A DNA stretch of 64,000 bases, taken from assembly GCA_902524845.1 (NCBI GenBank), contig CABZEW010000005.1, forward strand, positions 16,135-80,134. Reading direction: 5' to 3'. Shown here one piece after another: positions 56,640 to 64,000 of the stretch. Source of the stretch: an uncultured Alphaproteobacteria bacterium (GTDB lineage Bacteria; Pseudomonadota; Alphaproteobacteria; Rhodobacterales; Rhodobacteraceae). The notes under the pieces are model-generated. The model was given only the letters and a program-made list of their open reading frames with translations, was not told the origin of the DNA and searched no databases. Each line of letters begins with the position of its first letter. The first letter of the stretch is position 1. The translations under genes were made by a program, and so were the position numbers.

Positions 56640-58133
56640 TCACTTTAGTTTTTCATTCACAATCTGATTGATGATTTTTGGGTCTGCTTTCCCCTGAGAC
56701 TTCTTCATTACTTGACCTACAAACCACCCGATCAATTTTGGGTTGCTTTTGACTTTATTTACCTGCACGGGGTTTTCTCTTATAACGTCACCGACTATTT
56801 GTTCGATAAGACTTGTGTCTTGCACCTGTCGAAGGCCCAACTTATCCACTAACTCAATTGGGTTGCCTCCATATTTCCAAATGTGGTCAAAAATCTCTTT
56901 AGCTCCTTTACTGGATATTTCATCTGACCTTAAGAGATTTATCAATTCCTTCATTTGCTTTACTGTGATTGGGTTTTCGTTAAAAGATAAATTATCCTTA
57001 TTTAGTCGACCAAATAACTCATTGATAAGTAAGTTTGCTGCTATTTTCCCGTCCGTATTTGTCGCTATTGCCTCAAAAAACTCTGCTGTTAATTGCTCAG
57101 CAACTATTACCTCCGCGTCATAGGGTGTAATTTTAAAACCATCAATAAATCGTGATTGCTTTTTGTCAGGTAATTCAGGGAGATTATCCCTAATTTTATC
57201 GACCCACTCTCTCTCTAATTCAATTTTCAATAAGTCTGGACAAGGAAAATATCGGTAATCATGTGCATCCTCTTTACTCCTTAAGGGACGAGTTTCATTC
57301 TTATTTGGGTCATACAAACGTGTTTCTTGTTCAACTTTCTCTCCAGCCTCTACTAGCTTTATTTGTCTTCGAGCTTCAAAATTTATCGCTTGTTGTATAA
57401 ATTTCAATGAGTTCATATTTTTTATTTCGCACCTTGTCCCAAGTAAGTCAAAATCACCGGTTTCTAAAAAACTATGAAAAGTATTCACCTCACAAACTGA
57501 GACATTTACGTCTGCTCTCAAGGAGCCCTCTTGCATATTGCCGTCACATGTTTCCAGATACCTCATTATCAATCTCAATTTTTTTATATATTCCACAGCT
57601 TCGAATGGGCTATTAATTTCCGGTTTAGAAACGATTTCCATTAGCGCTATACCCGTTCTATTCAGGTCTACAAAACTGGTGGTTGGATCCATATCGTGTA
57701 TGGACTTCCCTGCATCTTGTTCAAGATGAATGCGCTCTACACCTACCTCCTTTGGCAATTTTTCTTCAGATTGGATGGATATTTTACCTTTGCCAACAAT
57801 TGGTTCGTATAATTGGCTAATTTGGTAACCTTGTGGCAGGTCAGGATAGAAGTAGTTTTTTCTGTCGAATCTTGAAATGAGATTAATTTCCGCGTTTATT
57901 CCTAATCCGGTTTTTACTGCCTGCTCGATACAAAATGAGTTTACGACAGGTAGCATGCCAGGCATACCCGCATCGATAAAGCTTACATTAGAGTTTGGCT
58001 CAGCGCCAAACTGAGTTGAAGCGGATGAAAAGAGTTTAGATTTTGATTTGACTTGAGCGTGAACTTCTAACCCAATCACAAAGACGAAATCGCTATTCGT
58101 TCCTCTGATTAACTGTGATTTTTCTATGTACAT
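56640..58133 (-). CDS. gatB: Asp-tRNA(Asn)/Glu-tRNA(Gln) amidotransferase subunit B
   Basis: FVIGLEVHAQVKSKSKLFSSAS, YFYPDLPQGYQISQ, LEQDAGKSIHD, VDLNRTGIALMEIVSKPEI; ATG at 58133 (MYIEKSQL) preferred over the upstream ORF start inside pepN. Confidence 0.95.
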   Translation of the reverse strand: MYIEKSQLIRGTNSDFVFVIGLEVHAQVKSKSKLFSSASTQFGAEPNSNVSFIDAGMPGMLPVVNSFCIEQAVKTGLGINAEINLISRFDRKNYFYPDLPQGYQISQLYEPIVGKGKISIQSEEKLPKEVGVERIHLEQDAGKSIHDMDPTTSFVDLNRTGIALMEIVSKPEINSPFEAVEYIKKLRLIMRYLETCDGNMQEGSLRADVNVSVCEVNTFHSFLETGDFDLLGTRCEIKNMNSLKFIQQAINFEARRQIKLVEAGEKVEQETRLYDPNKNETRPLRSKEDAHDYRYFPCPDLLKIELEREWVDKIRDNLPELPDKKQSRFIDGFKITPYDAEVIVAEQLTAEFFEAIATNTDGKIAANLLINELFGRLNKDNLSFNENPITVKQMKELINLLRSDEISSKGAKEIFDHIWKYGGNPIELVDKLGLRQVQDTSLIEQIVGDVIRENPVQVNKVKSNPKLIGWFVGQVMKKSQGKADPKIINQIVNEKLK

Positions 58134-60868: not shown

Positions 60869-61639
60869 TTGAAACCAGTTGTAGGTATTATAGGAAATTC
60901 GCACTTAATTAATGACACCTATCCGGCTCAAACGACCGGATTGATGAATATTGAGCCAATTATGGAAATATGCAACGCAATTTCGCTTATAGTACCAGGG
61001 GTTCCGAAAAATGCTACTACTGAGGAACTTATGAACATATGTGATGGATTTATCTTTACCGGCGGCCGTCCAAATGTGCACCCGAAATTTTATGGACAAA
61101 AGCCAACCAAAGAGCATGGCGAATTTGATGTGGGAAGAGATCAGGTTGTTATTCCTTTAATAAAGGAATGTGAAAAGATTGGAAAACCTATTTTAGGTAT
61201 CTGCAGAGGCTTTCAAGAGTTCAATGTCGCCTTTGGAGGCTCGCTGCATCCCGAGATAAGAGACTTACCTGGCAGGATGAATCACAGAATGCCACCCGAT
61301 GGCACTTTAGAAGAAAAATTTGCCCTTAGGCATGAGGTAACTTTTTTTCCAGGTTGCGTCTTTGAGAAGATATTTTGTAAAAAAAAGATTAATGTCAACT
61401 CATTACATGGACAAGGTATAGACCAACCAGGACAGAGAGTGTCAATAGATGGTCATGCTCCTGATGGCACTCCTGAAGCCATATCAATTGTTGGATCAAA
61501 AGGCTTTTGTCTGGCTGTGCAATGGCATCCAGAATGGCAGGCTGCTAGAGATACGAATTCTGTGAAGTTGTTTTCTGCTTTTCGCGATGCATTAAACAAC
61601 AAAAATTTTGTTGGTAATGAAGAGAAGATGGTTGGGTAG
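60869..61639 (+). CDS. Gamma-glutamyl-gamma-aminobutyrate hydrolase family (class I GATase-like, PuuD-like)
   Basis: FIFTGGRPNVHPKFYG, GKPILGICRGFQEFNVAFGGSLHPEI, VNSLHGQGID, LAVQWHPEWQAARD; TTG start. Confidence 0.9.
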   Translation: MKPVVGIIGNSHLINDTYPAQTTGLMNIEPIMEICNAISLIVPGVPKNATTEELMNICDGFIFTGGRPNVHPKFYGQKPTKEHGEFDVGRDQVVIPLIKECEKIGKPILGICRGFQEFNVAFGGSLHPEIRDLPGRMNHRMPPDGTLEEKFALRHEVTFFPGCVFEKIFCKKKINVNSLHGQGIDQPGQRVSIDGHAPDGTPEAISIVGSKGFCLAVQWHPEWQAARDTNSVKLFSAFRDALNNKNFVGNEEKMVG

Positions 61640-62603
61640 TATAAATAGACTGCTGAGTGTGGCTCCTATGATGGACTGCACTGATAGGCATTGTCGGTTC
61701 TTCCATAGACAATTGTCACGGCGTGCCCTGTTATACAGCGAAATGATTGTCGACAGAGCTATTATCTTTGGTGAAAGACAAAGATTTTTAAGGTTTAATC
61801 CTATTGAACACCCTATAGCTTTACAATTGGGGGGAAATGAGCCTAGGCTTTTAGCTGAAGCTACAAAGATAGCAGTGGATTTTGGATATGATGAGGTCAA
61901 CTTAAATGTTGGTTGCCCGTCATCTAGGGTAAAATCTGGAGATTTTGGAGCAGCTCTGATGAGAAAAATTGACTTAGTTAGATCTTGCGTGGAAGCCATG
62001 AAAAACTCAGCAGGAAAAACTCCTGTGACTGTAAAGTCAAGAATTGCAGTTGATGATCAAAATCCTGTTGAAGTCCTGCCTGACTTTATAGCAAAGGTAG
62101 CAAATTCTGGTTGCAACGTTTTTATCATACACGCAAGGAAAGCTTTGCTCGAGGGTCTATCCCCAAAAGATAATAGAAAAGTTCCACCACTCCAATATCC
62201 GTTAGTTTATGAAATGCAAAACAATTTTCCGGAACTTGATATCATTTTAAATGGAGGATTAACTAACTTGGAAAATATTAAATCATGCTTAGCAACACCC
62301 GTTGCTGGAGTGATGATTGGTCGAGAAGCGTATGAAAACCCTTCGATATTATTGGGAGTAGATAAAGAAATTTTCGACCAAAAAGAACATAGTGGAGATA
62401 TGAAAGATGCGATCCGGAATATGATTGAGTATTGTCATAGAGAGCAAGCTGAGGGGACCGCAATTAAGGGTATTTTAAAACATTTGAAGGGAGCATTTAA
62501 GGGTCAAGCAAACTCAAAGAACTTCAAACGTCTTCTATTCTGCAATCAAACAGTAGATTCAGAAAAATTAAAGAAGCTTTCTAGCTTGATTACAAATTAT
62601 TGA
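61608..62603 (+). CDS. dusA: tRNA-dihydrouridine synthase DusA
   Basis: LLSVAPMMDCTDRHCRFFHRQLSRRALLYSEMI, NLNVGCPSSRVKSGDFGAALM, FIIHARKALLEGLSPKDNR; ATG at 61614 likely. Confidence 0.94.
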   Translation: MLVMKRRWLGSINRLLSVAPMMDCTDRHCRFFHRQLSRRALLYSEMIVDRAIIFGERQRFLRFNPIEHPIALQLGGNEPRLLAEATKIAVDFGYDEVNLNVGCPSSRVKSGDFGAALMRKIDLVRSCVEAMKNSAGKTPVTVKSRIAVDDQNPVEVLPDFIAKVANSGCNVFIIHARKALLEGLSPKDNRKVPPLQYPLVYEMQNNFPELDIILNGGLTNLENIKSCLATPVAGVMIGREAYENPSILLGVDKEIFDQKEHSGDMKDAIRNMIEYCHREQAEGTAIKGILKHLKGAFKGQANSKNFKRLLFCNQTVDSEKLKKLSSLITNY

Positions 62604-62651: not shown

Positions 62652-63056
62652 TCAGGTATTGTTTTGTTGTATGTTCTTCAAGCGATCCAACAAATTTTGT
62701 AAAATCAAAACAGCTGCAATTGAGTCGACTACTTGCTTCCTTTTCTTGCGAGATAAATCAGCTAACAGAAGCGACCTTTCTGCCGCAACTGTTGTTAGTC
62801 TTTCATCCCAAAATGTTATAGGAAGATTCACAATGTTTGAAAAATTTGTAGCGAAATCACGAGTGGACTGACATTTTGGCCCCTCTGATCCATCCATATT
62901 TAGAGGTAGGCCAATCACTATTCCACAAATTATTTCCTTATCTATGATGGTTTGGAGCTCTAAAGAAAAAAGTGAAAATTTTTTCTTTTTAAGAGTCGCA
63001 TAGTTTGAAGCTATGCTTTGAGTCCTGACTATAATTGTTATAGCCATCAGCTCCAC
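62652..63056 (-). CDS. ruvX: RuvX/YqgF Holliday junction resolvase family, N-terminally truncated
   Basis: SIASNYATLKKKKFSLFSLELQTIIDKE...IVIGLPLNMDGSEGPKCQSTRDFA...ITFWDERLTTVAAERSLL...KKRKQVVDSIAAVLILQ; N-terminal GxDxGxKxxGxAxxD segment is absent and replaced by out-of-frame soxB sequence. Probably non-functional. Confidence 0.85.
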   Translation of the reverse strand: MELMAITIIVRTQSIASNYATLKKKKFSLFSLELQTIIDKEIICGIVIGLPLNMDGSEGPKCQSTRDFATNFSNIVNLPITFWDERLTTVAAERSLLLADLSRKKRKQVVDSIAAVLILQNLLDRLKNIQQNNT

Positions 63057-63939
63057 CTCCTATAACGAGCTCTCCTTTATCAGACTGACTCAAATATCCA
63101 TGCACCGTATTAGCCATAACAACACAATCTATGATTGGTTTAATAGGCTCCGATACTAACGCTTGGAGAGCTACTGACTCAATCGGCAATCTAAAACCGG
63201 CTAACTCGGCTAAAACACTTGAATGACCTGCTGCAACAAAACAAACTTTTTTTGCTTTTATTTGTCCTTTTGTAGTTTCCAGTCCTACTATCTTTTCCCT
63301 TTTCTTTTTAACTCCGACAACCTCACACTGCTCTATTATATCAATACCATAGTCAGAGCACCTTCTCGCATACCCCCATGCCACAGCATCATGGCGAGCA
63401 GTTCCCCCTCTAGGCTGCCAGAGTGCTCCTAGCACAGGAAACCTTGGCCCTTCAATATTAATGATTGGTACTATTTCTTTTACCTCATCTGGAGTAACCA
63501 TTTTCGTATCTACTCCGTTAATTCTATTTGCATGGGATGTTCTCTTCATTGCTCTCAATTCATGCTCCGTCTGACAAAGCATTAAAACCCCTCTAGGACT
63601 AAACATAATATTGTAATTAAGATCTTGTGAAAGCGTCTCATACAAAAATCTAGACTTTTCATAAATACTAATGGAGCTTTCCTGCAAATAGTTGGAGCGT
63701 ATTATTGTAGTATTACGCCCTGTGTTTCCACCGCCAATCCAGCCTTTTTCGATCACTGCTATGTCCGTAACATTATAATTCTTAGCCAAATAATAAGCGG
63801 TCGCCAGGCCGTGACCGCCCGCTCCCACAATTATTATCTCGTATTCATTTTTCGGTTTTCGCTTTGCCCAAGCTTTCTCCCAACCCAGATTATCTCTAAA
63901 CGCTTCGGTGAAGATGGACGAAAAAGAGTATTTTTTCAA
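62989..63939 (-). CDS. soxB: Sarcosine oxidase beta subunit, C-terminally truncated
   Basis: YEIIIVGAGGHGLATAYYLAKNYNVTDIAVIEKGWIGGGNTGRNTTIIRSNYL, GGTARHDAVAWGYARRCSDYGIDI, YLSQSDKGELVIGGGADGYNNYSQ; ends abruptly with DSKHSFKLCDS, about 100 residues short of typical SoxB. Confidence 0.88.
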   Translation of the reverse strand: MKKYSFSSIFTEAFRDNLGWEKAWAKRKPKNEYEIIIVGAGGHGLATAYYLAKNYNVTDIAVIEKGWIGGGNTGRNTTIIRSNYLQESSISIYEKSRFLYETLSQDLNYNIMFSPRGVLMLCQTEHELRAMKRTSHANRINGVDTKMVTPDEVKEIVPIINIEGPRFPVLGALWQPRGGTARHDAVAWGYARRCSDYGIDIIEQCEVVGVKKKREKIVGLETTKGQIKAKKVCFVAAGHSSVLAELAGFRLPIESVALQALVSEPIKPIIDCVVMANTVHGYLSQSDKGELVIGGGADGYNNYSQDSKHSFKLCDS

Positions 63940-64000
63940 ATTTTTTATCCCTAATTAACACTTGTTTGGCCAGATCAAAAAATATATATCAAAGATTACT

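Follow-up and report, generated by a model that had tools for sequence, protein, structure and literature searches.

The analysed window, a stretch of 64,000 nucleotides, comprises bases 16135-80134 of contig C5, and its end is at the same time the end of the contig (base 80,134). Close to this end lies dus (tRNA-dihydrouridine synthase, 61608..62603, plus strand), an intact native neighbour which relatives carry at the corresponding position and which is convergent with ruvX. It is followed by two frames on the minus strand which overlap in different reading frames. These are ruvX lacking its 5' end (62652..63056) and soxB, the sarcosine oxidase beta subunit, lacking its 3' end (62989..63939; ORF, Pfam DAO and tblastn). 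Within the ruvX frame only 62652-63027 is native, while 63028-63056 represents soxB read in another frame.

SoxB matches its relatives over residues 1-305 of about 415 (tblastn to intact SoxB) and this part scores 171.7 bits with Pfam DAO. Thereafter the window frame continues with the 11 non-native residues DSKHSFKLCDS and a stop codon, where the relatives read RGSFLHI and further residues (about 110 more in total). RuvX is native only from Arg49 (numbering according to the 172 aa RuvX of AG-904-M20) and scores 109.6 bits with Pfam RuvX (PF03652), covering only profile positions 21-133 of 134. The GIDLGEKRVGLSISD motif, corresponding to the N-terminal GxDxGxKxxGxAxSD of RuvX, falls in the lost part and is absent by truncation, such that the PF03652 domain is incomplete. 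Neither protein is thus full-length. An earlier note on this DNA had described one gene without its 3' end, the other without its 5' end at the same point, and a RuvX devoid of its N-terminal motif; ORFs, Pfam and relatives bear this out on all counts. No decay is seen in the soxB fragment, whose codon-position identities to relatives are about 0.95/0.98/0.64 and which shows strong purifying selection right up to the break.

The exchange point was located at 63026..63027 by codon comparison of both flanks and by the BLAST switch. It coincides with a microhomology of 2 nt, TG (CA on the gene strand), and falls inside the range of 63015-63031 proposed before. In the codon-by-codon comparison to relatives, native SoxB sequence extends as far as codon 305 (…TAT AGT CA), and that of RuvX sets in at codon 49 (C AGG ACT CAA AGC…). 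The BLAST switch point in relatives is at 63023-63045 / 63026. Every relative spanning both sides gives the switch at one and the same place, so the join is not due to chance.

A short hairpin GCATAG...CTATGC (62999..63016) lies close to the join on its ruvX side and is largely conserved in relatives. Single-strand folding of window positions 62960-63100 is stronger than that of shuffled sequences (z -4.2). The fold comprises a hairpin of A/T runs, the hairpin just named in ruvX (GCATAG...CTATGC) and, across the join, a chance pairing of TTTGAGTC with GACTCAAA.

Gene order of the locus in relatives

The native gene order in relatives is dus(+), ruvX(-), ccmI-like(-), soxB(+), soxD(+), soxA(+), soxG(+). 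Eighty loci were fetched, and the 75 in which both ruvX and soxB are visible form the counted set. They span single-cell genomes of the same genus, metagenome bins and cultured strains of the Roseobacter group (Marivita, Roseovarius, Yoonia and others). In all of them (75/75) ruvX(-) and soxB(+) are located on opposite strands with ccmI in between and soxDAG outside. According to the record titles, loci with this native orientation include MAGs and cultured isolates, i.e. genomes obtained without single-cell amplification. In same-genus genomes both flanks of the join match strongly on opposite strands, about 1.85 kb apart. The soxB-ruvX join itself is present in none of the 75 loci; short forms shared by many relatives, which would have made the truncations ordinary, are hence not seen.

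Compared to the dus-ruvX-ccmI / soxBDAG locus of the Roseobacter group (AG-904-M20 NODE_4, L033), the window has the same genes with 80-90% DNA identity, and its contig is collinear with same-genus contigs over 79 kb. In contrast to that locus, the soxB part of the window is inverted, and the sequences of ccmI, the ruvX 5' end, the soxB 3' end, soxD and soxA are missing.

This arrangement bears directly on the main reading of the earlier note, a deletion that took the start of ruvX together with soxDAG and the end of soxB. The sequence does contain both truncations, as that reading demands, and the assembly has soxG only in part and neither soxD nor soxA of the sox locus. The gene-order comparison with close relatives that the note had proposed contradicts it, however. 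A single deletion cannot turn genes from opposite strands into neighbours on the same strand, so that a prior inversion would be needed as well. Moreover, soxDAG lies beyond soxB, on the far side from ruvX. A deletion in a single event is therefore rejected by strand geometry, and the probability left for this reading is practically negligible.

Two further observations concern the native locus. In L018:7363-8584 the frames called for ruvX and the ccmI-like gene share 38 bases, the ruvX start codon being uncertain; this overlap suggests that both are co-transcribed in the genus. As in the window, contigs of several other same-genus assemblies, AG-918-C19, AG-422-M03, EAC2087 and MED-G56 (starts of L036, L045, L096 and L032), end in ccmI or no more than a few hundred bases from where soxB starts, which may be coincidence or may reflect a stretch prone to coverage loss.

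Contig end and gaps of the assembly

The join is 975 bases away from the contig end. A random position would be equally near a contig end with a chance of 2.4%. Bases 1-79164 of the contig form a single collinear block with G003:C2 and likewise with G008:C5, at about 80.5% identity. For the final ~970 bases the strand changes, and they match the adjoining stretch in these relatives in reverse sense (G003:C2:56999-57968; G008:C5:98492-97518). The misjoined tail (63026..64000, minus strand, 64000 being the last base of the contig) comprises the first 305 soxB codons and 61 bases upstream, inverted with respect to the rest of the contig as indicated by its opposite-strand match to relatives.

The assembly consists of 89 contigs and is estimated to be 74% complete. 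Laid on G003:C2, it reads C7 (to 49621), a gap of 0.4 kb, C78 (50033-53115), a gap of 3.9 kb, the flipped C5 tail (56999-57968), a gap of 0.9 kb and C5 proper (58853-137997). C78 (3,087 bases) breaks off in the middle of soxG at the contig edge, which is a gap rather than a deletion scar and a further point against the deletion. The mapped gaps account for the rest of soxG, for soxA and soxD, the end of soxB, ccmI and the beginning of ruvX. These parts are hence unassembled and need not be deleted.

We found no second copy of ruvX elsewhere in the 74%-complete assembly, and neither soxD nor soxA of the sox locus; only the 3' half of soxG was recovered, on C78. At this completeness the search for an intact ruvX or soxDAG, likewise suggested before, is uninformative. 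The idea that the strain would lack both sarcosine oxidase and RuvX does not follow either, since the missing parts sit in gaps. A paralogue was considered as cause of the break: the other soxB-like match, G000:C65 (L133) 2322-2860 with ~71% DNA identity, maps elsewhere collinearly and was rejected. This C65 adjoins C41 on the G003:C4 map and is not involved in the join.

Origin of the inverted join

Taken together, we interpret the join as a fold-back chimera of technical origin, formed when the genome of a single marine Rhodobacteraceae cell was amplified (phi29/MDA type) and now sitting at a contig end; we assign this reading a probability of roughly 93%. The misjoin that the earlier note had offered as its alternative is thereby supported and becomes more specific, namely a local inverted join of the phi29 type at a contig end.

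The properties of the join resemble those of known amplification chimeras. When one E. coli cell was amplified by phi29 MDA, inverted joins made up 85% of the chimeras (Lasken and Stockwell 2007, PMC1855051). Of 475 chimeras, 337 were inverted with segments <10 kb apart, and 93.5% of those showed complementarity of at least 2 nt (PMC1855051). Likewise, the window join is inverted, with segments ~1.85 kb apart (<10 kb), a deletion of the intervening sequence and 2 nt shared. It differs in being seen in an assembled contig, whereas the published chimeras were seen in reads.

The assembly itself probably derives from a single cell. Most of its same-genus relatives are named AG-xxx NODE_n (e.g. 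AG-904-M20_NODE_4), which is the naming of SCGC/GORG single-cell genomes; AG-410-O08, for instance, is a GORG-Tropics SAG (PMC11247762). The pipeline of SCGC (Bigelow's Single Cell Genomics Center) uses SPAdes in single-cell mode, trims 100 bp per contig end and keeps contigs >2000 bp (PMC5519541). The smallest contig of the assembly has 2055 bp and fits this cut-off. The benchmark rate of this workflow is 1.5 misassemblies per 100 kb, so that about one is expected in a contig of 80 kb.

Further joins of this kind were searched for by comparing 45 contigs or contig ends to about 0.98 Mb of G003. Alignments over nearly the whole length were obtained for eleven contigs including C5, with the match of C7 limited to its last 11.4 kb. 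A flip is confined to C5: none of the 10 others shows a fold-back join, and none was found in the unmatched tails of C46, C65 and C31 either. The survey thus gave no sign of a high local rate of fold-back joins in the assembly, a point that counts against the chimera.

The following course of events would account for the observed join. While the DNA was being amplified, a displaced 3' end that had been synthesised on soxB or ruvX would have paired through 2 nt (TG/CA) with the opposite strand some 1.85 kb away. Its extension would have linked soxB codon 305 with ruvX codon 49 as an inverted join. Speculatively, the GCATAG...CTATGC hairpin may have helped to free a 3' end. The coverage of the true ccmI-soxB-soxDAG path would have been too low to assemble, and the assembler would have taken the chimeric path for 975 bases and then stopped.

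A pure assembler error, i.e. a misjoin in the graph with no chimeric molecule behind it, would agree with the location at the contig end and with the patchy local coverage implied by the gaps. It is nevertheless extremely unlikely because no sequence longer than about 2 nt is shared at the join. This leaves no k-mer overlap for a de Bruijn assembler, so reads containing the junction must have existed. We infer that the join arose during amplification and not in the assembler.

A real inversion of ~1.85 kb in this lineage, with breaks in soxB codon 305 and ruvX codon 48, would break both genes and leave ccmI intact but flipped. The single junction has the exact geometry of one inversion end, the contig stops short of where the second junction would be, and the nearest relatives share only 80-91% DNA identity here, which makes a lineage-specific change possible. 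Such an inversion would however disable RuvX/YqgF, a protein essential in several bacteria including E. coli (PMC9601230), in an assembly with no second copy at 74% completeness. Neither fragment has decayed, no relative carries the join, and its position within 1 kb of a contig end would require the 2.4% coincidence. Neither the reciprocal junction of the ruvX 5' end to the soxB 3' end nor the native one was found in the assembly, whereby the contig ends before the place of the former and the genome is 74% complete. We therefore regard the inversion as highly unlikely.

Meaning of the double break

If the inversion were true, there would be a marine Rhodobacteraceae lineage in which soxB and the normally essential ruvX are both broken. 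On the preferred reading of a fold-back chimera, the soxB/ruvX double break is a technical artefact and no biological novelty. Unchecked joins of this type could lead annotations to record gene losses that never happened, in this case those of sarcosine oxidase and RuvX. Hence, where two genes are broken at a single point less than 1 kb from the end of a single-cell contig, a comparison with relatives for an inverted fold-back should come first. In the cell, soxB and ruvX are most likely intact and arranged in the native order dus, ruvX, ccmI, soxB, soxD, soxA, soxG.
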